A stretch of DNA of 64,000 bases, from NCBI GenBank assembly GCA_019635775.1, contig JAHBYU010000007.1:165795-229794 (forward strand), read 5' to 3'. Each line of letters starts with the position of its first letter. The first letter of the stretch is position 1. The position numbers and the translations under genes are program-made. Source of the DNA: Rhizobiaceae bacterium (GTDB taxonomy: Bacteria > Pseudomonadota > Alphaproteobacteria > Rhizobiales > Rhizobiaceae). Below, one piece after another: positions 23,848-35,614 of this stretch. Below the pieces are notes generated by a model, which was not told the DNA's origin, did no database searches, and saw only the letters and a list, made by a program, of their open reading frames with translations.

Positions 23848-24435
23848 ATGTGCAACTTGGTCCGAGCCTTCTCATGTCTAATATTTGTCATGGTCGCGCA
23901 GGCCGCGTTTGCTCACACCGGGGACGGTGAGGCGGGTGGGTTTGCGAGCGGCTTCCTGCACCCGATATTTGGCCCGGACCATGTGATTGCCATGGTGGCG
24001 GTTGGCCTTTGGGGTGTCTTCCTTGGCCCACCTGCGATCTGGGTATTGCCCATCGTATTTCCTCTGGTGATGGCTTTCGGCGGTGCACTGGGGATCGCAG
24101 GCGTACCGCTACCAGCAGTCGAGACAGGCATCGCGCTGTCGGCCGTCGTCCTTGGTCTTTGTGTCACGTTTGCTCTGAAGCTACCCATCTGGTTTGCCGC
24201 GATAATCGTTGGCGTGTTTGCGATCTTTCACGGCCACGCCCACGGCGTGGAGATGCCGCAGAGCTCAAATGCCTTGTCATTCGCAATCGGCTTTGTGGTC
24301 GCCACGGGAATGTTGCACCTGTGTGGTGTCGGTTTCGGCTTTTTAGCGAGATGGCCCGTAGGCGCACTGGTTGTGCGTGCCGCTGGAGCCCTGATTGCCT
24401 TTGCAGGCGGCGCATACCTTACCGGTATTGCGTGA
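23848..24435 (+). CDS. HupE/UreJ-family membrane protein (nickel/metal permease type)
   Basis: A 195-residue inner-membrane protein with a signal sequence (1-23, AFA) followed by a processed N-terminus beginning HTGDG. It carries both HupE/UreJ signatures: HPIFGPDH (residues 39-46) and FHGHAHGVE (128-136), whose His/Asp residues bind metal. Rhizobial HupE imports Ni2+ for hydrogenase; no hydrogenase or urease genes are near, so the metal is open. The ATG at 23848 has a TTGGAG ribosome-binding site. The next gene starts four bases inside its end (GTGA). Confidence 0.82.
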   Translation: MCNLVRAFSCLIFVMVAQAAFAHTGDGEAGGFASGFLHPIFGPDHVIAMVAVGLWGVFLGPPAIWVLPIVFPLVMAFGGALGIAGVPLPAVETGIALSAVVLGLCVTFALKLPIWFAAIIVGVFAIFHGHAHGVEMPQSSNALSFAIGFVVATGMLHLCGVGFGFLARWPVGALVVRAAGALIAFAGGAYLTGIA

Positions 24436-25031
24436 GGGCTGCTGCCAAAGCCGTAGCCGGATGTGCGCTTGCCTCGCTTGCCACTCCGGCTGCTGCGCAT
24501 GGTAACGCCGACCTCCTTGGTCCCTTTTATGGCGCTCTCCTGCATGCTGTCATCGTACCGCCCGAAGCACTGGCAGCGATCGCTACGGGGTTGGCACTGG
24601 GAACTTGCGGACGAAGCGTGGCGCAAAGAAGTGCACTAGTCTTTATCACGACCCTGGCTTGCGGATTGTTGGTTGGAGCCGTGGCGTACTCTGATCGTCA
24701 TATGGAATGGCTACTTGTGGCCGTCGCACTCGTCGGCGGAGCTTTGGTTGCAGCCGAGGTCAAATTGCCGCTTTTCGGAGCGGTATCACTTGCTGCTGTT
24801 GCTGGGGTCGCGGTGGGCATCGATGCCTCTCCCGCAGTTCCAAGCTTTGGGACAGCCATATTGACTGGCGCTGCCACGTTGATGGGCGGTAGTCTCGTGG
24901 TCATGATGGTCATCGGTCTCACACTCGACCGAGATAAGTCTTGGCAGCGGATCGCTGTTCGCGTGGCCGGATCCTGGATCGTTGCCATTGCTGTGCTTTA
25001 CCTAGCTTGGACATTCAAATCGGTCGCCTAG
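24432..25031 (+). CDS. HupE/UreJ-like membrane protein lacking the second signature
   Basis: A 199-residue membrane protein with a GTG start overlapping the stop of the preceding HupE gene. The signal sequence ends TPAAA, and the mature protein starts HGNADLLGPFYGALLHAV, a pattern like HupE. It has about six hydrophobic segments, but lacks the DH pair and the FHGxAHGxE motif, so metal binding may be lost. It is probably a partner subunit or diverged paralogue of the upstream protein. Confidence 0.65.
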   Translation: MRAAAKAVAGCALASLATPAAAHGNADLLGPFYGALLHAVIVPPEALAAIATGLALGTCGRSVAQRSALVFITTLACGLLVGAVAYSDRHMEWLLVAVALVGGALVAAEVKLPLFGAVSLAAVAGVAVGIDASPAVPSFGTAILTGAATLMGGSLVVMMVIGLTLDRDKSWQRIAVRVAGSWIVAIAVLYLAWTFKSVA

Positions 25032-25159
25032 GGTGATGGGGTCGTCTGGGTTAAAACTGCGGGATATGTACCACGTAAATTACGTGCTTTGAGGTCTAAT
25101 GCGTCTTCTATTCTTACCCGACGTCAGATAACCTCCAGTTGCACTTGACGGAGGATAAT

Positions 25160-27403
25160 ATGCGAATTCCGCTGAATAGACGGTTGCTCATTGCTGTGGC
25201 TGTCCCCGCCCTGCTTGCAAGCCAGTCCCAAGCCCAAGAACGGAATGCATATTTCGGCGAGACCCACGTCCACACGGGCTGGTCGTTCGATGCCTACATC
25301 TTCGGCAACACGAAAACCTCACCAGCCGACGCCTACAAATACGCGAAGGGCCAGACAATCAAGCATCCCCTTGGCTATGACATCAAGATCGACACGCCGC
25401 TGGACTGGATGGGTGTCACCGACCATTCGGAATATGTCGGCACCGTCGCGCTGGCCAATACGCCGGGATCCGACATCGCCAAGCTGCCGATCGCCCAAAA
25501 GCTGATCGTGCATTCGCCTGCCGACATCCAGCGCATCTATCTCTGGCTCGGCGGCACGATCGTCGACAAGAAGCCGATCGAGGAACTGATCTCGCCTCAG
25601 GTCGCAGGCTCTGTCTGGAAGCAGAACATCGACATCGCGAACGCAGCCAACGAACCGGGCAAGTTCACCGCTTTCTGCTCGTACGAGTGGACGTCGACCC
25701 CCAACAACCGAAACATGCACCGCAACGTCTTCTTCAAGGACTGTGCGAAAGTTCCGCAAGTCCCCTTCAGTTCCATCGATTCCAGCGATCCGTCCGACCT
25801 GTGGAACTGGATGGACGGCCAGCGAAAGGACGGCAACGAACTGCTGGCGATATCTCATAACGCCAATCTGTCGGATGGCCATATGTTCCCGACCGATGTG
25901 GATGAAAAGGGCCGTCCTATCGATGCTGCCTGGGCGGCATCGCGCGACCGCAACGAACGGCTGACCGAGATCAAGCAGATCAAGGGCGCCTCGGAAACCC
26001 ATCCGACGCTGTCGCCCAACGACGAGTTCGCCAATTTCGAGATCCTGACCTATTTGCTTGGCGATCCAGCCGGCCGGTTCCCGCAGATTCCCGGCAGCTA
26101 CATCCGGCAAGCCCTGAAGGACGGCCTCGCGATGAACGAAGCGCGCGGCTACAACCCGTACAAGACCGGTTTCGTGGGCGGGTCGGACTCGCACAATACC
26201 GGCGTTCCGTATCGCCAGAACAATTTCTACGGCGGCCACGCGCATGCGGATGGCGACATAAAGCAGCGCATGGCTGGCTTCCTGTTCGCGGGTCTCGACG
26301 TGCGGCTGGAGAACCCTGCGGGTCTGACCGGCCTCTGGGCCGAAGAGAACACCCGTGCGTCGCTCTTCGACGCGATGCAGCGAAAGGAAACCTTCGCGAC
26401 CAGCGGACCGCAGATCAAGGTACGCCTGTTCGGCGGCGCCGATGTCGCGGCAGCGGCCGACCAGCCGGACTGGGTGAAGGCCGCCTATGCAAGCGGCGTG
26501 TCGATGGGCGGCGACCTGCCCCCGTCGAGCGAGGGCAAGGCACCTTCCTTCATCGTCTGGGCGCTCAAGGACCCGACATCAGGCAATCTTGACCGCATCC
26601 AGATCGTCAAGGGATGGTCGAAGAACGGACAGAGTTTCGAGAAGATCTTCGACGTGACTTGGGCCGGCAACCGCACGCCCGACAGGTACACCGGCGTCGT
26701 GCCGCCGATCGGCAGCACGGTGAACATCTCCGACGCGAGCTACACGAACACGATCGGCAGCGTCGAACTAAAGGGTACGTGGACCGACCCGGAATTCGAC
26801 CCGAGCCTCGACGCGTTCTATTACGCCCGGACGCTGGAGATTCCGACCCCGCGCTGGACGACCATCCAGGCCAAGGAAGTCGGTATAGCGCCGCCCGACA
26901 ACGTTGCAGCAACGATTCAGGAGCGCGCCTGGACGTCTCCGATCTGGTACACGCCGACCAAGGAGCAGCGGACCGCCGTCAAGGGCACGACTATCGCCGA
27001 CCTGCAGGGTCAAGGCGCGACGGCGCTTGACGACGCAGCGCTCAACGACCTCATCGTCGGCAAAACGACCTGGGTCCGCAACACGGTGACGGGAGACATC
27101 TTCAACATCGCGTGGACCACGGCCGGACAGCGCCTGATCGGCAACGTCAACGGCGACATTCCGAAGCCGAGCGAGGTTGGCGACGTATTCCACGGCGGCT
27201 CGCTGGGCACCGGTACTGCATATGCCATCAAAGACGGCGCCATCGTGACCACGCTCGGCGGCCTGCCCTACGAGGCGACGGTTTACAAGGTCGGCGACAA
27301 GTACTTCGCGGCGCGCAGCAACGAGTTCGGCTACGCCAACTACGAGGTCGTCCCGGCGCCACAGGCGCTCGATCCGCTCGACCAGCCGAAGTCGCCGTTC
27401 TAA
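25160..27403 (+). CDS. Secreted DUF3604 protein with PHP-like metal motifs
   Basis: A 747-residue protein with a signal peptide (1-25, ending SQAQ) and a strong ribosome-binding site (GGAGGATAAT) before the ATG. DUF3604 is a family of unknown function. I see a set of residues in the order expected for a PHP-type metallophosphoesterase: HVH at 36-38 with Asp44, TDH at 87-89, Glu176, His233 and SDSH at 342-345. A trinuclear metal site is therefore plausible, and the protein would act in the periplasm. The substrate is unknown. It opens a four-gene cluster with a CxxC protein, a parvulin isomerase and a HupE-type transporter. The first 0.1 kb upstream lies after the HupE pair. Confidence 0.85.
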   Translation: MRIPLNRRLLIAVAVPALLASQSQAQERNAYFGETHVHTGWSFDAYIFGNTKTSPADAYKYAKGQTIKHPLGYDIKIDTPLDWMGVTDHSEYVGTVALANTPGSDIAKLPIAQKLIVHSPADIQRIYLWLGGTIVDKKPIEELISPQVAGSVWKQNIDIANAANEPGKFTAFCSYEWTSTPNNRNMHRNVFFKDCAKVPQVPFSSIDSSDPSDLWNWMDGQRKDGNELLAISHNANLSDGHMFPTDVDEKGRPIDAAWAASRDRNERLTEIKQIKGASETHPTLSPNDEFANFEILTYLLGDPAGRFPQIPGSYIRQALKDGLAMNEARGYNPYKTGFVGGSDSHNTGVPYRQNNFYGGHAHADGDIKQRMAGFLFAGLDVRLENPAGLTGLWAEENTRASLFDAMQRKETFATSGPQIKVRLFGGADVAAAADQPDWVKAAYASGVSMGGDLPPSSEGKAPSFIVWALKDPTSGNLDRIQIVKGWSKNGQSFEKIFDVTWAGNRTPDRYTGVVPPIGSTVNISDASYTNTIGSVELKGTWTDPEFDPSLDAFYYARTLEIPTPRWTTIQAKEVGIAPPDNVAATIQERAWTSPIWYTPTKEQRTAVKGTTIADLQGQGATALDDAALNDLIVGKTTWVRNTVTGDIFNIAWTTAGQRLIGNVNGDIPKPSEVGDVFHGGSLGTGTAYAIKDGAIVTTLGGLPYEATVYKVGDKYFAARSNEFGYANYEVVPAPQALDPLDQPKSPF

Positions 27404-27482
27404 GGCGCCGCAGCGAACGGCCGGGGCGATAATCGTCCCGGTAGTTCGGCGAGACATCCCTGCGGCCGTAGGAGAGCCAATC

Positions 27483-28646
27483 ATGCAAACCCTGCGCTTG
27501 CTGTTCGGCGCTGTCGCGGCTGTGTTTTTGACGGTCGGTCAAGGACAGGCTTGCGCAATCTGCTTTTCTAGCACGGTGATCACCCCCGGTCAGAAACTTG
27601 ATGCGGCCGACGATGCCGTGCTCGCAGTCCGGTTGCCAGACGGTGGCGGTTTCCGCGTGGTGGAAGCCGTCAAGGGCGACGTCCCCATGAACGAGACAAT
27701 TACCGAGGCCACTGTTTCGCTTGACGCGCCGGCGCTTGCAACATTCCTGGATGCGGGGAGCCCGGTTGCGCGCGTCTCACCGGACGATCAGGGCAAGCCG
27801 CTTCTGTTGTTCCGCAACCGGACGTCCGAAGCGTGGGTGGGTTTCGGCGCGATAGGAGCGGAATACGCCGATTGGTTGCGTGAACTGGCCGCGACCAAAA
27901 AGGACGGCGACGGCGCGCCTGTGAAATTGTGGCCATCGAAGGTGATGGGATGGTCATCGCTGACAGAGGCGGAATGGCAGGCACGCGCCACGATCATCCT
28001 GCCCTATCTCGAGGCGGACGACCCCCTGGCCGCCGAAATCGCTTATGGCGAACTGATACGGACGCCTTACCGCGTCATGCGCGGCCTGAAGCCAAGGCTG
28101 GATGCGGTGCAAATCAGGCGCTGGATCGATGATCCGCAGCAGTCGTCCAGGATTCCGGTGCATACACTTCTGCTCGGCATTGCGGGCGACGCGTATGACG
28201 CCGCCGAGATCGAGAAGCGCATCGACGAGGCGCTGCTGCATCGTGACACAGGGAATCTTTCAGCGATGCTCGCCGCCGATTTGGAACTGCGCGGACCGTC
28301 GCGGCTGGACTGGCTTCAGACGACGTTCTTCGAGGATCGTCAGCGGACGCTGCCCGAGATCGACGCGGCACTGCTGGCGCTGAGCGTACAGGGGCAGGCG
28401 GATGGCGCGGTGCCGCGCGAACAGGTCATCGAGGCTTATCGTGCGTTCATCCGGACGCGAAAGCCGATGGCCGGCTTCGTGGCCACCGAACTGGCAAACT
28501 GGGAAGCATGGGATGCGACGGCGGACTATGTCGATATAATCCGGTCCAACGCGGTCAAGGATCCGGCCGGGCAGTTTGCGATCCTGAGCTATTTGAAAAG
28601 CAGTCCGCTGACAGCAGGACAGGCGACATTGCTGCCGGCAGAATAG
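27483..28646 (+). CDS. Secreted protein of unknown function with N-terminal CxxC
   Basis: A 387-residue protein with a signal peptide (about 1-23) directly followed by CAIC, a CxxC motif at the mature N-terminus. Residues about 25-110 look beta-rich; from about 165 on it is helical, in a series of short helix pairs like HEAT-type repeats, with no catalytic motif I can name. It lies 80 bases downstream of the DUF3604 gene and 45 upstream of the parvulin gene, so it is probably co-transcribed. It may bind metal or thiols in the periplasm; this is inference. Confidence 0.65.
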   Translation: MQTLRLLFGAVAAVFLTVGQGQACAICFSSTVITPGQKLDAADDAVLAVRLPDGGGFRVVEAVKGDVPMNETITEATVSLDAPALATFLDAGSPVARVSPDDQGKPLLLFRNRTSEAWVGFGAIGAEYADWLRELAATKKDGDGAPVKLWPSKVMGWSSLTEAEWQARATIILPYLEADDPLAAEIAYGELIRTPYRVMRGLKPRLDAVQIRRWIDDPQQSSRIPVHTLLLGIAGDAYDAAEIEKRIDEALLHRDTGNLSAMLAADLELRGPSRLDWLQTTFFEDRQRTLPEIDAALLALSVQGQADGAVPREQVIEAYRAFIRTRKPMAGFVATELANWEAWDATADYVDIIRSNAVKDPAGQFAILSYLKSSPLTAGQATLLPAE

Positions 28647-28690
28647 ATCGATCGCAACTCAACGAGCGTTCCAACTAACGGGCGACTGAC

Positions 28691-29611
28691 ATGACAAGGC
28701 TGCGGAAGATACTTGGCGAGCCGTTGCTCCATTTCTTCGTCGTCGGAGCGCTGGTGTTCGGCGCATACCGCTTCCTCAACCCTCCGCCGGAACAGGCAGC
28801 GGATCCGCAACGCGTCGAACTGACCGCAAGCGATGTGCAGCAACTGGCCGTGAGCTGGCTCGCACAGGGGCGGCCACTGCCCACTCCCGAAGAGCTGCGC
28901 AGCCTCGTCGAGCAGAAGATCAACGAGGAAATCCTGTCGCGCGAGGCCATCGCGCTCGGGCTCGATCAGGACGACCAGATCATCAAGCGCCGCCTCGCGC
29001 AAAAGATGGACTTCCTGGCGGCCGACCTGGCGGCGATCGATGAGCCGACCGATGCCGAACTGGCGAACTGGTACAGCAAGAATTCCAACCGCTTTGCGCA
29101 GCCGCCGCATGCCAGCTTCCGGCACCTGTATTTTTCGCCGGACAAACGAGGCCAGGCCGCCGAACAGGATGCCACCGCCGCACTTGCCTCGCTGGCCGGG
29201 AAAGAGGCTGATGCGCCGGAGAGCCAGTCGCTCGGCGATCCGTTCATGCTGCGCGACTTCTACGGCGACGCCACCCCGGCGCAGACGGCCAAGGAGTTCG
29301 GGCCGGCCTTCGCGCAGGCCGTCTTCGGCCTGCACCCCGGCGCTTGGCACGGTCCGGTGCAGTCCGGCTATGGCTGGCATCTGGTCTGGGTGGATTCTTT
29401 GGAGCCCGGCCGCGTACCGCCCTATGAGGAGGTCAAGGCCGACGTCAAGGCGGCGTGGCTCGATGACCGCTACCAGGAGGTCAAGCGCAATGCGCTGGCC
29501 GAGATGCGTTCCCGCTACACGGTGGTGGTGACGCCGCTTGAAGCGGTCGACCTGGAGGACCTTGGAGCTACGGGTGAGGACGGTGCCCTAGCGGAGCAGA
29601 TCTCGCAATGA
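28691..29611 (+). CDS. Membrane-anchored parvulin-type peptidyl-prolyl isomerase
   Basis: A 306-residue PpiC/SurA-type protein. One membrane segment (about residues 12-28) anchors it with the rest in the periplasm. The helical N-terminal chaperone part (about 40-130) contains EQKINEEILSREA, and the parvulin domain is about 130-250, with GPAFAQAVFGL and GPVQSGYGWHLVWV as the family's usual strands. It should help fold or secrete other proteins; the DUF3604 protein and the CxxC protein in the same cluster are obvious clients. Its stop overlaps the start of the HupE gene (ATGA). Confidence 0.85.
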   Translation: MTRLRKILGEPLLHFFVVGALVFGAYRFLNPPPEQAADPQRVELTASDVQQLAVSWLAQGRPLPTPEELRSLVEQKINEEILSREAIALGLDQDDQIIKRRLAQKMDFLAADLAAIDEPTDAELANWYSKNSNRFAQPPHASFRHLYFSPDKRGQAAEQDATAALASLAGKEADAPESQSLGDPFMLRDFYGDATPAQTAKEFGPAFAQAVFGLHPGAWHGPVQSGYGWHLVWVDSLEPGRVPPYEEVKADVKAAWLDDRYQEVKRNALAEMRSRYTVVVTPLEAVDLEDLGATGEDGALAEQISQ

Positions 29612-30618
29612 GCCGACCCTGCGCAAACGGCGCGACGCTGCTGTTGGCCATGTTGGCCCTGATCGGCACAATGGCCGGCGCAGCGTTCGCCCATGAAGTG
29701 AGACCGGCCTATCTGCAGATCGACCAGATCGGGCAAGGCCGTTTCAGCATGCTTTGGCGCACGCCCATCTTTTCAGGTATGCGGCTGCCGGTCGTGCTGC
29801 AGTTCTCCGACGGTATCAAGCAGGCGACGACGCCGTCGAAGCGTCAGCTGTCGGATTCAATCATCGAGCGGAGCATGATCGAATCCGCGGACAACCTGGC
29901 CGGCGAGCGGATCACGTTTGTCGGCCTGCAGGCGACAATCACCGACGTGATGGTCCGGGTGAAGCTGGACGATGGAACGGTAACGACCACGCTTGTCAGG
30001 CCGTCACAGCCCTGGGTCGAAATCCAGACAAGGCAGAGTACGCTGGAAGTAATCAAGGTCTTCGTCGTCAGCGGCATCGAGCACATCCTGTTCGGCTTCG
30101 ACCACCTGCTGTTCGTTGCAGCGCTGATGCTGATCGTGCGCCGCTGGGGCATGCTCCTGAAGACAGTGACGGCTTTCACGGTGGCTCACTCGATCACGCT
30201 GACCTGCGCCACCATGGGATGGGTAAGCCTGCCCTCGGGGCCGGTGGAGATCATGATCGCCTTCAGTATCGTTCTCGTCGGTGCCGAGATCATCAGGATG
30301 GAGCGCGGCGGAACCAGCCTGGCGATAGAATGGCCATGGATCGTGGCATTCTTCTTCGGGCTGCTTCACGGCTTCGGGTTTGCCGGCGCGCTGGCCGATT
30401 TCGGACTGCCGCACGGCGACATACCGCTCGCCCTGTTCTCCTTCAACGTCGGCGTCGAGATTGGGCAGCTTTTGTTCATCGCGGTTTTGCTGCTCACGAT
30501 GCACTTGGTCCGGCGCCTGTTCGAAATCCCGCAGCGGGCTGTCGTGGCGTCTGCTTATGGGATTGCTATTATTGCCGCCTTCTGGTGCATCGAGCGCTTG
30601 CATTCCACATTCGTGTGA
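29608..30618 (+). CDS. HupE/UreJ-like transporter with periplasmic N-terminal domain
   Basis: A 336-residue protein: signal sequence (1-28, AFA), a soluble beta-rich domain (about 29-140, starting HEVRPAYLQI), then a membrane part of about six to seven segments. The HupE_UreJ_2 signatures are visible: SGIEHILFGFDHLLF and GLLHGFGFAGAL, with conserved His and Asp residues likely to contact metal. Its start overlaps the parvulin gene by four bases. It is the last gene of the DUF3604 cluster and presumably moves a metal ion or small molecule linked to the DUF3604 enzyme. Confidence 0.82.
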   Translation: MSRPCANGATLLLAMLALIGTMAGAAFAHEVRPAYLQIDQIGQGRFSMLWRTPIFSGMRLPVVLQFSDGIKQATTPSKRQLSDSIIERSMIESADNLAGERITFVGLQATITDVMVRVKLDDGTVTTTLVRPSQPWVEIQTRQSTLEVIKVFVVSGIEHILFGFDHLLFVAALMLIVRRWGMLLKTVTAFTVAHSITLTCATMGWVSLPSGPVEIMIAFSIVLVGAEIIRMERGGTSLAIEWPWIVAFFFGLLHGFGFAGALADFGLPHGDIPLALFSFNVGVEIGQLLFIAVLLLTMHLVRRLFEIPQRAVVASAYGIAIIAAFWCIERLHSTFV

Positions 30619-30817
30619 AAGATGACGGAACACCGCCTTTGTACGTCGTCGCTCGGAGGCATAAGCCCAACCAACCTTGAGTGGCCCGCGACGGGCTGTT
30701 GAGCCGTCTATCAGCTCTGATTCATTTCTGCACCGCAGTGCGAGGTTTGTGTGAGGCAGTTGCCAGCGTCGCCACAGGCGCTATATCGCGGAAGCGAAAA
30801 TGTCTTGGGGGACCTTC

Positions 30818-31255
30818 ATGCAGAACGAAGAGCAAAGCAAATTGAGCGCGCTTACCGCGGACATAGTGGCAGCGTACGTTTCGAACAATCCGTTGCCGGC
30901 GGCAAATTTGCCTGAGCTGATCGCGACTGTGTACGCAGCTGTCGCTGGTGTCGAGCGACCAGCTGAGCCAACCGTAGGGGCGCTGAAGCCCGCGGTGAAC
31001 CCGAAACGGTCAGTGTTCCCCGACTACATCGTCTGCCTGGAGGACGGCAAACGCTTCAAATCGCTTCGCAGGCACTTGTCTGCGGACTTTGGAATGACGC
31101 CCGACGAGTATCGTTCGAAGTGGGGCTTGCCTGCTGACTACCCGATGGTTGCTCCAAACTACGCGGCGACGCGCTCGGAACTGGCAAAGAAGATGGGCCT
31201 TGGTCGCAAGCCCGGCGCAAAGATCAAGCGGACGGCGAAGTCCCGGGCCAGATAG
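30818..31255 (+). CDS. MucR-family (Ros-type) transcriptional regulator
   Basis: A 145-residue MucR/Ros protein. The zinc-finger-like DNA-binding region (about residues 68-100) shows CLEDGKRFKSLRRHL followed by GMTPDEYRSKWGLP, the family signature. MucR proteins bind AT-rich promoters and control exopolysaccharide, motility and symbiosis genes in rhizobia. The ATG at 30818 has a GGGGGA ribosome-binding site; an ATG at 30800 is an alternative. Many rhizobia carry several MucR paralogues; this one has no obvious linked target. Confidence 0.88.
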   Translation: MQNEEQSKLSALTADIVAAYVSNNPLPAANLPELIATVYAAVAGVERPAEPTVGALKPAVNPKRSVFPDYIVCLEDGKRFKSLRRHLSADFGMTPDEYRSKWGLPADYPMVAPNYAATRSELAKKMGLGRKPGAKIKRTAKSRAR

Positions 31256-33092: not shown

Positions 33093-33371
33093 TTAGTAGT
33101 TTCCCCGCGCGGCCTCAGCCAGGATCATTTTGTCCAGCGTCAGATCCGAGATGGCACGACGAAGCCTGGTGTTCTCGGTCTCCAGCTCCTTCAGCCGCCT
33201 CACCTGGTCGCCCTTCAGGCCACCATACTCCTGCCGCCAGCGGTAATATGTAACTTCCGTCACGCCTATCGACCGGACCGCCTCTGCGACCGGTCGTCCT
33301 TGCGATGTCAGCACGTCAACCTGACGCAGCTTCGCAACGATCTCTTCTGCTGTGTGCCGTTTCCTGGCCAT
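33093..33371 (-). CDS. IS3-type transposase OrfA
   Basis: A 92-residue OrfA with the HTH_Tnp_1 domain (KRHTAEEIVAKLRQV, then EVTYYRWRQEYGG) and a leucine-zipper-like helix (LKELETENTRLRRAISDL). The ATG at 33371 has GAGGAG upstream. In an intact IS, OrfA binds the ends and joins OrfB by -1 frameshifting; here OrfB is truncated, so this is the remnant of an insertion sequence. I could not define the terminal inverted repeats. Confidence 0.85.
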   Translation of the reverse strand: MARKRHTAEEIVAKLRQVDVLTSQGRPVAEAVRSIGVTEVTYYRWRQEYGGLKGDQVRRLKELETENTRLRRAISDLTLDKMILAEAARGNY

Positions 33372-33595
33372 CTCGTCTCTCCTCAATCGGCTCAAAAGCC
33401 ATACCTAATTGAGGACCACTTCTTTGGGGGCAGACCACAGCCATGGGGTGCCGATCCCAAGGGCTTTCGCATTCTGGGGGGTGTGCAGTCATGCATCGGC
33501 AGCGCATTGCCGAGCGGGTTGCGCGCCTTACGCTTGTTGCACTCGCCAGAATACTAGGTAAGGTCTTAAAGGGATTCTGATTTGGAGAGGGGCCA

Positions 33596-35614
33596 ATGAA
33601 GTTCCGGGCGGGGTTGTCTTGTGGCGTGGCGCTTGGTGCGCTTCTGGCGGCAGCCGGCGGTGCAACAGCCGAAGACTTCGTTGTCCCGGCAGGACCTCCC
33701 GTTGGCCAGCAGGTACTCCCCGGTCCCGGTGATACGCTGCTCATTGAGATCGGGGGCAGCATTGAGGTCTCCGGTTCGGTTTTCGGCGTATGGATGCAAA
33801 ATGACAATCAGAGCGTAACCAACAACGGCGACGTCACAGCCCTGGAAGGCTATGGCATTTACTCCACCGAAGCCGACGCCGAGATCACTAACAACGGCAA
33901 CATCACGGCGTACTGGGGCGGCATTTTGGCCAATGGGGCCGGTGTCCAAGTCACCAACAACGGCAACATCACGTCATTGGGGGGCGAGGCTATATTGGCC
34001 GATGGGGGTCAAGCGCGAGTCACCAATAGCGGCAATATCATCGCATCAGGTGTTAATGATCGCGGCATTTTAGCCGGGGGGGCCGGTGCACAGGTCACCA
34101 ACAGCGGAAACATAACGACTACGGCATTGGGTGGCCAGGGAATCTATACCGCCGTCGGTGCCGACCACCGGATCACCAATAGCGGCAACATAACGACATT
34201 GGGAGGAAATAGCATCGGCATCCGGTCCCGCGGGGACAATGCAGACATCACCAACACGGGCGTTATTACCACGTGGCATGAGTCTGCCGGAGGCATCCGT
34301 GCGGAAGTCGCCTCCGCGACGGTCACCAACTCCGGATGGATCATCTCCCACCTCAACAGCTACGCGATATTTTTCGACCAGCAGGACGCCACACTCAACC
34401 TCCTGGCAGGCAGCGTTATCCAAGGGGATATCCGCTTTAGTATGCCCGACACGGCGACGCTCAACATCGGCCCGGGCCTTAACGCGGCGCTGACTTTCAC
34501 CGGCCTGCCCACGACCATCAACACCTTTGGTGCCCCAATGGCGGTGCAGGGCAACCTGGTCGCCGTCATCGACCCGACCGGCTTCTCGGCGCAGGATGAA
34601 ATGTTGACCGACCTCACACGTGCCATTGCAGGCGCGGTCGACGGGCGGCTCAATGCCGCCCGCTTCGGCTATGTCCCGATGGCAAGCTCCGTCACGGCCT
34701 ATGCTGAAGCGGACACGCAGCCAACGGCATTCGGCTACGCCACCGGCACCAGCACAGCCAGCAGCACAGCCAGCAGCACAGAGGGCGGTTTCTGGGCGGC
34801 CGGCATCGGCTCCTGGCGCAACCAGGATGCCGATGGTCCCAATGTCGGCTTCGACACCGCTCTTGGCGGCCTGCTGGTTGGCTATGACACGCACGTGTCC
34901 GGCAGCACGCGGGTCGGTGGCTTCCTCGGCGCGTCCGCATCCAGATTCGAGAACGACGCAAACTCTCAGGAGATCGATGCCGACAGCTACTATGGCGGCC
35001 TCTATGCAGGCTTCACCGGTGAAAGCTATTTCCTCGATGTTTCGGTCACGGGCGGCGTATCCCACCAGTCAAGCGATCGGACCGTCGCCAACAATCTTGA
35101 GCCTGGCGGCATCGAGCATGCCAAAGCTAAATACGATGGTGTCTTCATCAGCCCGTCCGCAACCATTGGCACGACATTCGCGATGGCGAACGGCAACGGC
35201 TTCGTCCCGAGCTTGCGCGCCCGCTATGCCGGCTTGTTCCTCGACAGCTATGAGGAGAGCGGTTCGGCCGCCAACCTCTCCGTCGAGGATCGCGATGTGA
35301 ACATCTTCGACTTTCGCGCCCAACTTGCTTATGCTTTGGCCTCCCTGCCGTTGGGCAATGGCAACCTTCACACGACATTCCGCGTCGGCGCGGATGCCAC
35401 CTTCGCCGACAATGACAATGTCGACGCCGCGCTGCTCGGCACCGCGCTGAATTTCGATGTCAGCGGCGATGACACCCTGCGAGGCTTCGCCGGCATCGAC
35501 TTGAACTACCGCACCGACAGCGGCACCAGCTTCTTCATCGGCGCCGAAGCCGGCTATGACAGCGGCGATGCTTTCACCCTCGACGTTCAGGGTGGGCTCA
35601 GGGTACGGCTGTAG
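33596..35614 (+). CDS. Autotransporter with Asn/Gly-rich passenger repeats
   Basis: A 672-residue protein: signal peptide (1-25), a passenger of about eight short repeats of the type VTNNGNIT (residues about 70-260) that should build a beta-helix, and a C-terminal autotransporter barrel (about 400-672) ending RVRL. A short Ser/Thr/Ala linker (TSTASSTASST, about 386-396) is made by a 12-base tandem repeat. It has a good ribosome-binding site (GAGAGGGG). Such proteins are surface adhesins or serum-like factors; no enzyme domain is visible. It starts 220 bases from the IS remnant. Confidence 0.88.
   Translation: MKFRAGLSCGVALGALLAAAGGATAEDFVVPAGPPVGQQVLPGPGDTLLIEIGGSIEVSGSVFGVWMQNDNQSVTNNGDVTALEGYGIYSTEADAEITNNGNITAYWGGILANGAGVQVTNNGNITSLGGEAILADGGQARVTNSGNIIASGVNDRGILAGGAGAQVTNSGNITTTALGGQGIYTAVGADHRITNSGNITTLGGNSIGIRSRGDNADITNTGVITTWHESAGGIRAEVASATVTNSGWIISHLNSYAIFFDQQDATLNLLAGSVIQGDIRFSMPDTATLNIGPGLNAALTFTGLPTTINTFGAPMAVQGNLVAVIDPTGFSAQDEMLTDLTRAIAGAVDGRLNAARFGYVPMASSVTAYAEADTQPTAFGYATGTSTASSTASSTEGGFWAAGIGSWRNQDADGPNVGFDTALGGLLVGYDTHVSGSTRVGGFLGASASRFENDANSQEIDADSYYGGLYAGFTGESYFLDVSVTGGVSHQSSDRTVANNLEPGGIEHAKAKYDGVFISPSATIGTTFAMANGNGFVPSLRARYAGLFLDSYEESGSAANLSVEDRDVNIFDFRAQLAYALASLPLGNGNLHTTFRVGADATFADNDNVDAALLGTALNFDVSGDDTLRGFAGIDLNYRTDSGTSFFIGAEAGYDSGDAFTLDVQGGLRVRL
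34751..34781 (+). repeat. 12-base in-frame tandem repeat
   Basis: AGCACAGCCAGC repeats about 2.6 times and encodes Ser-Thr-Ala-Ser units in the linker before the autotransporter barrel. Copy number could change without breaking the frame. Confidence 0.7.

Follow-up and report, generated by a model that had tools for sequence, protein, structure and literature searches.

How metalloenzymes in the periplasm are supplied with the correct metal is, to our knowledge, largely unsolved. The question is raised by a gene cluster within a 64,000-nucleotide stretch of a Rhizobiaceae genome (contig JAHBYU010000007.1; the whole stretch is called the window here). The cluster encodes a secreted DUF3604 protein, a CxxC protein, a parvulin-type peptidyl-prolyl isomerase (PpiC) and a HupE_UreJ_2 permease (HupE2), and an initial annotation had suggested a periplasmic metallohydrolase system with its own chaperone and with metal supply or product uptake. 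We tentatively read it as an operon for a periplasmic PHP metalloenzyme together with the proteins that fold it and supply its metal (a maturation set), with predicted hydrolase activity and hand-over, and give this reading slightly less than an even chance. It builds on the gene order and its conservation, the invariance of the putative ligands, the fold class and the occurrence of CxxC homologues in or beside zinc-uptake operons. The genes concerned are:

25160 to 27403, + strand: DUF3604 protein P0001, 747 amino acids (PF12228, E 3.9e-204)
27483 to 28646, + strand: CxxC protein P0002, 387 amino acids (no Pfam or NCBIfam family above cut-off)
28691 to 29611, + strand: parvulin-type peptidyl-prolyl isomerase P0003, membrane-anchored and periplasmic, 306 amino acids (Rotamase_2, E 7.1e-23)
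29608 to 30618, + strand: HupE_UreJ_2 permease P0004, 336 amino acids (PF13795, E 2.4e-46)
23848 to 24435, + strand: HupE/UreJ permease P0005, HupEa (PF04955, E 5.1e-59)
24432 to 25031, + strand: second, divergent HupE/UreJ protein P0006, HupEb, with a GTG start (PF04955, E 1.3e-06)

The four genes of window positions 25160-30618 were confirmed in the order DUF3604 - CxxC - parvulin - HupE_UreJ_2. Pfam matches upheld the families of the initial annotation, its coordinates held, and the overlap it had noted between the parvulin and HupE_UreJ_2 genes measures 4 bases. The cluster is larger than had been said, with a pair of HupE-type genes (23848-25031) directly upstream of the DUF3604 gene. The open reading frame (ORF) of P0005 opens at a TTG (23827), has an ATG at 23848 and encodes HP-x4-DH and FHGHAHG motifs; P0006 is without the HP-x4-DH motif. 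In the relatives at loci L151, L153, L157, L166, L171, L204 and L219, homologues of HupEa and HupEb lie directly 3' of HupE_UreJ_2, giving the full order DUF3604-CxxC-PpiC-HupE2-HupEa-HupEb; the window has the pair in front instead. Because these homologues follow the HupE_UreJ_2 permease in named relatives, we count the pair as a member of the cluster.

The PF12228 match of P0001 covers residues 26-599 of the protein and positions 2-591 of the 591 in the profile, and a signal peptide was recognised by eye. Nine residues (H36, H38, D88, H89, E176, H187, H233, D343 and H345) do not vary among 58 aligned homologues, which bears out the PHP-like set of metal ligands first noticed in this secreted protein. 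The order HxH...DH...E...H...H...DxH is invariant in six divergent DUF3604 relatives too, and we take it to be the ligand order of PHP hydrolases. An AlphaFold2 model of P0001 was confident (pLDDT 88.9, pTM 0.90). Its best PDB match in Foldseek was the PHP domain of RNase AM (7ug9, E 8.8e-4, probability 1.00), and the model does not contradict the alternative of a fold without a metal site. Judged by its sequence and model, P0001 looks like a secreted PHP-type metal-dependent hydrolase with predicted active-site ligands. It belongs to a long subfamily that has an extra C-terminal domain (about residues 600-735) beyond the Pfam model, plus a further beta-rich part. Window positions 26957-27403 encode a C-terminal stretch of about 140 residues outside the Pfam match, with conserved positions in homologues of 57-74% identity. 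PDB sequence searches with P0001, with P0004 and with DUF3604, CxxC and HupE profiles gave no meaningful match. In the open-access literature searched, the name DUF3604 appeared once, labelling an entry in a list of transposon mutants of Chlamydia trachomatis, which fits the earlier statement that no function had been shown for such a cluster; nor was an account of a HupE permease together with PpiC found in the open-access literature.

We then analysed how widely the neighbours occur together. Whole-genome samples of 190 genomes of the class and 297 of the order contained PF12228 matches in 34 and 55 genomes, respectively, many of them short matches to distant proteins; the 14 named control genomes contained none. 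From 40 + 35 stretches taken around long PF12228 matches in the two samples, 70 loci with a DUF3604 ORF of more than 500 amino acids were obtained. PpiC and HupE_UreJ_2 both lay within the stretch in 35 of these 70, figures that count loci and not independent events, because a number of genomes contribute two or more loci and contig ends cut some. Among the 35 triad loci, DUF3604 came first on the same strand in 30, PpiC came first in two and strands differed in three, and the PpiC and HupE ORFs overlapped by exactly 4 bases in 24. HupE_UreJ_2 (PF13795) was found in 15 of 16 class genomes with full-length DUF3604 versus 2 of 16 without, the latter 16 being the top of a list rather than a random draw and one genome with DUF3604 (G174) being left out.

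A second set of 78 named loci came from a search with seven long DUF3604 proteins (best 80 of 115 relatives, two short peptide patterns) and favours the long DUF3604 subfamily, because long proteins served as query. PpiC occurred in 67 of these loci, HupE2 in 64, both in 64 and CxxC in 22. HupEa was detected in 22 and HupEb in 19, both lower bounds because single-sequence profiles were used; CxxC and HupEa coincided in 10, and the HupEa homologue ended 3' of HupE_UreJ_2 in all 22 loci having one. The named loci span Alpha-, Beta- and Gammaproteobacteria, Acidobacteria (L176, L178, L182) and Blastocatellia (L205), and include a Hydrogenedentota bin (L220) and a Sumerlaeota bin (L221). With parvulin and HupE as conserved partners across phyla, an association limited to this genome is therefore excluded. 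No relative of P0001 was found among the viral contigs searched. One record, titled Mycobacterium sp. KBS0706 (L161), has a DUF3604 69% identical to P0001, as high as in proteobacterial records; its organism name is possibly wrong.

The three proteins also diverge together. Across 100 loci, at least four of which occur twice (as unnamed and named copy of one contig), pairwise distances correlated at 0.89 for DUF3604-PpiC, 0.82 for DUF3604-HupE2 and 0.87 for PpiC-HupE2; none of 500 permutations was as high, in a test that keeps shared descent in. Divergent DUF3604-like proteins (profile E 2e-17 to 2e-32) had their own PpiC and HupE2 in five of eight loci (L237, L238, L239, L241, L242); L240 had HupE2 alone and L243 and L244 had neither. 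Four of the eight (L237-L240) had been chosen for a known nearby HupE, and the triad was present in two of the four others. The DUF3604-like proteins of those five loci measure about 750 amino acids, keep the PHP ligands and contain many invariant cysteines; their PpiC and HupE2 are likewise divergent. The triad DUF3604-PpiC-HupE_UreJ_2 is a real, widespread neighbour set that is not local to the window genome, and its grouping exceeds chance.

Copy numbers were informative as to what the pair may serve. Of the 16 class genomes with full-length DUF3604, 11 have at least two such matches; six of these 11 have a single HupE_UreJ_2 match (G009, G091, G116, G121, G143, G183). Two to four DUF3604 genes stand in tandem beside a single PpiC-HupE2 pair at L036, L049, L055, L105:7824-15498, L119 and L128. 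At L233:2200-8400, three DUF3604 genes are followed by CxxC, with PpiC-HupE2 adjoining on the other strand. With several enzymes sharing one pair, a shared maturation set suits these data better than a substrate-specific transporter does, if not in every genome.

The CxxC protein P0002 has a signal peptide, after which the apparent mature chain opens with Cys-x-x-Cys; a small beta part follows, and the C-terminal part is helical and HEAT-like. Its AlphaFold2 model, from four sequences, was moderate (pLDDT 75.4), and its PDB matches were HEAT-like and weak, all with E above 0.001. When overlapping samples of 297, 397, 385 and 398 genomes were searched with the P0002 sequence or a profile, six convincing loci emerged, three with DUF3604 and three in or beside Zrg-type zinc-uptake operons. 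The former are the window, L038 (where DUF3604, PpiC and HupE2 adjoin) and L233. At L142 and L234 the gene row reads ZrgA, ABC ATPase, permease, CxxC, DUF3299, while at L073 CxxC is divergent from ABC ATPase, permease and DUF3299. ZrgA scored above its NCBIfam cut-off (NF047873; 187.5 bits at L142 and 191.8 bits at L234, cut-off 185), as did DUF3299 (PF11736) above its Pfam cut-off at all three loci and the zinc chaperone GTPase ZigA (NF038288) at L142 (646.7 versus 600); a Zur-like gene at L142 remained under its cut-off (98.1 versus 167). Two further matches were dropped from the six, G631 (E 7.5e-4) being a parvulin-like ORF and G457 (E 6e-4) having no marker genes beside it. A first contig scan for named loci with a three-row CxxC alignment gave no match.

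At the apparent mature N-terminus, 23 of 26 homologues have CxxC and three (L038, L073, L142) have CxFH; the family also shows CLAC at L233 and CAFH at L234. The zinc-operon copies are all CxFH (3 of 3), and the sampled DUF3604-linked copies are CxxC in two of three and CxFH in one. The presence of homologues in zinc-uptake operons ties the CxxC family to metal handling, so that P0002 probably handles metal, and the metal is probably zinc. Some loci have a small secreted protein with a Cys-first apparent mature N-terminus (CGYH, CVYH, CGFE) between DUF3604 and PpiC or beside HupE2 (L106:7417-8031, L110:7371-7985, L129:4815-5429, L134:7606-8028). No Pfam family scored above cut-off in the two members scanned, and the protein is possibly a stand-in for CxxC.

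The parvulin P0003 matched Rotamase_2 (PF13145) with 82.1 bits against a cut-off of 27 and has one N-terminal hydrophobic segment, as seen by eye. In P0004, a periplasmic N-terminal domain that begins with His after the signal peptide is joined to a C-terminal PF13795 membrane domain. This His, H29, directly follows the apparent signal-peptidase site AFA (by eye) and is nearly invariant (at least 90%) in 33 homologues; H159, D165, H166, H194, E214, E227, H254 and E284 are invariant in 33 sequences. According to a Nature Communications paper of 2025 (PMC12537917), HupE/UreJ-2 proteins termed 'anglerase' (Ang-1) have an N-terminal His and a periplasmic domain. One such domain was crystallised with copper and binds copper with a dissociation constant (Kd) of about 74 nM and nickel with one of 220 nM. 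Its closest DALI match is the zinc protein ZrgA, and metal capture for the permease was proposed as its role (PMC12537917). The likeness of the Ang-1 domain to ZrgA and the occurrence of the CxxC family in ZrgA operons point the same way.

Together, these results suggest the following mechanism. DUF3604 would be exported by Sec as an unfolded chain, be caught on leaving the translocon by the membrane-anchored parvulin, which would aid its folding, and become a PHP-type hydrolase whose active site holds several metals, probably three. The His-first periplasmic domain of HupE_UreJ_2 would capture a transition metal. In clusters that have one, the CxxC protein would act as a soluble metal-binding scaffold by way of its N-terminal Cys-x-x-Cys, relaying metal between this domain and either the enzyme or the permease, and the extra HupE pair would widen transport capacity. 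HupE proteins are known as importers into the cytoplasm; therefore the hand-over would take place outside, or the permease would work in reverse, or the enzyme would free metal for import. We infer every hand-over step, the hydrolase activity, which metal is used and which way HupE transports. Zinc is our first guess, given the CxxC homologues in Zrg operons; manganese, iron, nickel, cobalt and copper remain candidates. It is possible, if doubtful, that the principle is general, that is, that parvulin and His-first HupE together load metal at the membrane in widespread PHP hydrolase modules, with an optional N-terminal-Cys scaffold common with Zrg. As to the initial annotation, its putative metallohydrolase with chaperone and metal supply was supported; for metal supply the case has gained through the CxxC homologues in Zrg-type zinc operons, the nearly invariant His of HupE and the copper- and nickel-binding His-first domain described in PMC12537917. 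Its alternative, product uptake, gained no support, as nothing was found pointing to import of an organic product by HupE.

Upstream of the genes, two features offer a lead on regulation:

25072 to 25086, no strand: 15-bp palindrome CACGTAAATTACGTG, candidate regulator site upstream of DUF3604, the sole 0-mismatch match to CACGTAANTTACGTG in its own genome
23762 to 23773, + strand: half palindrome CACGTAATTTAC, upstream of the HupE pair, a 12-mer with exact copies in the 4.95-Mb genome here and at 25075-25086

A copy of the palindrome with one mismatch lies on contig C35 of the same genome (L146:4962-4976), between a DUF1254/DUF1214 gene and a divergent TPR-like gene (L146:5026-6813; both genes together L146:3400-6813); homologues of both recur beside the cluster in relatives. 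TPR scores of the TPR-like protein were under the Pfam cut-offs. Upstream of the TPR-like homologues, the palindrome reached a shuffle p <0.02 in two of 13 scored relatives (L166, L173) and was not clear in the other 11, with L127 and L197 in this scoring being the same genome. It was not found before the triad in most relatives, and one of the two places with two mismatches (L147) adjoins unrelated genes. Genome-wide, matches with up to three mismatches numbered 40, fewer than the 82 of the reversed control. As a conserved regulator site the palindrome was rejected; it is a candidate site and a lead on regulation, not a result.

Among the 78 named loci, recurrent neighbours were DUF1254/DUF1214 genes (13), TPR-like genes (12), AraC regulators (9) and sulfatases (7), each family being named from one member. 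In the window, a Ros/MucR regulator gene lies directly 3' of the cluster (30800-31255, PF05443 E 5.5e-49). Farther downstream are a short ORF resembling part of an IS3-type transposase (33093-33395) and a 672-residue repeat-rich, autotransporter-like protein (33596-35614), both judged by eye.

Several observations weigh against a metalloenzyme operon with its own maturation set. For the PHP fold, 7ug9 is the single PDB match below 0.001 and the sole support from Foldseek. Neither partner was present in 33 of the 70 DUF3604 loci, some of them cut by contig ends, and one partner in two; G052 has DUF3604 without HupE_UreJ_2; and HupE_UreJ_2 is multi-copy in five of the 11 multi-DUF3604 genomes (G018, G099, G123, G137, G150). 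The CxxC protein is optional, because it occurs in only 22 of the 78 named loci and six convincing sampled genomes. Import by HupE, its known direction, would not on its own bring metal to a periplasmic enzyme. The Ang-1 structure 9GCE was not found in the PDB with the P0004 sequence or the HupE profile, so the likeness between P0004 and Ang-1 is one of architecture only. Finally, the Ang-1 domain prefers copper and nickel, and zinc slightly destabilised it (PMC12537917).

Part of this evidence suits other explanations. The one we rank first among them, and still consider unlikely, is metal scavenging: DUF3604 would hydrolyse a metal-binding organic compound on the outer side of the cytoplasmic membrane, the His-first HupE domain and CxxC would catch the metal set free, and HupE would import it, so that the cluster would be an uptake system with the enzyme as its releasing step. 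HupE proteins are, as far as is known, importers, zinc-uptake operons contain CxxC homologues, the window has three HupE-type genes beside one enzyme, and near some relatives there are genes resembling outer-membrane or TonB-type receptors (by eye), one with a beta-barrel Pfam match. However, no metallophore genes were recognised among the recurrent neighbours, for which no family-level search was made; DUF1254/DUF1214, sulfatase and catabolic-looking genes recur instead; and the window palindrome is unlike the Zur site quoted in PMC9817125 for the Vibrio zrg operon. Those catabolic-looking neighbours would suit a hydrolase that cleaves an environmental ester, carbamate or phosphoester, like the distant CehA/McbA, with the HupE-like permeases moving the organic product. 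Sulfatase genes, plus P450-, acyl-CoA dehydrogenase- and monooxygenase-like genes (by eye), occur near some loci, and DUF3604 relatives have a weak profile link to CehA_McbA_metalo (E 1.1e-4 at L055, 9.9e-7 at the divergent L239). Yet their scores of 17.8-28.5 bits fall far under the curated cut-off of 80, and P0001 itself gave no CehA/McbA match (NF038032). The invariant His, Asp and Glu residues of HupE_UreJ_2 are as expected of a metal carrier, and one HupE common to several enzyme paralogues would be odd for a product transporter. We regard such a catabolic role as quite unlikely.

It is improbable that HupE and CxxC serve protection, keeping wrong or excess metal such as copper off a vulnerable multi-metal site. 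CxxC motifs often bind soft metals, and the His-first HupE domain described in PMC12537917 binds copper most tightly, but the CxxC homologues sit in zinc-uptake operons, and no copper-resistance genes were recognised in the listed neighbourhoods, where no search was aimed at them. A loose genomic neighbourhood without functional coupling might explain why the pair is missing from half of the DUF3604 loci sampled; the four-base PpiC/HupE overlaps, the order conserved across phyla, the co-divergence and the renewed pairing in divergent relatives speak so strongly against it that we consider it very improbable.

A periplasmic PHP enzyme with its own maturation set would matter in several respects. 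The module offers a compact, conserved and clonable case in which an enzyme, a folding helper and likely metal carriers are neighbours. If our reading is true, DUF3604 and the orphan CxxC family would receive their first functions, His-first HupE proteins would be linked to a client enzyme, and zinc-uptake operons would be connected with a hydrolase system. Should its more doubtful general form hold, HupE_UreJ_2 would gain a role as well and the PHP superfamily would have a dedicated periplasmic metallation machine.

How does the cluster compare with known systems? HupE/UreJ nickel permeases belong to hydrogenase and urease operons, and like them the permeases described here are PF04955/PF13795 membrane proteins encoded beside the enzyme served; unlike in those operons, the enzyme is a secreted PHP protein, and a parvulin and a CxxC protein are added. 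With PHP hydrolases (7ug9; NF038032; PF12228), P0001 shares the ligand order and, by its best Foldseek match, the PHP fold. It differs from the known ones in being secreted, in its length of 747 amino acids and in its extra beta-rich part and C-terminal domain, and its activity is predicted. Like Ang-1, P0004 has a His directly after the signal peptide, a periplasmic domain and a C-terminal PF13795 domain, whereas its periplasmic part is shorter (about 120 versus about 176 residues). The neighbours named in the Ang-1 paper include DUF4198, indigoidine A-like and PfkB proteins, and its main text mentions neither 'DUF3604' nor 'isomerase' (PMC12537917). In Vibrio parahaemolyticus, zrgA shares an operon with ABC genes and a DUF3299 gene; zinc limitation induces this operon strongly and Zur represses it, and ZrgABCDE is listed there as five genes without a CxxC protein (PMC9817125). 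The likeness to this system lies in the CxxC family, which occurs in ZrgA-ABC-permease-CxxC-DUF3299 operons in two genomes and divergently in a third. No ZrgA and no ABC transporter was found in the window cluster, of which only CxxC has homologues there. Set beside these systems, the cluster can be read as an enzyme operon that comes with dedicated helpers for metal and for folding.

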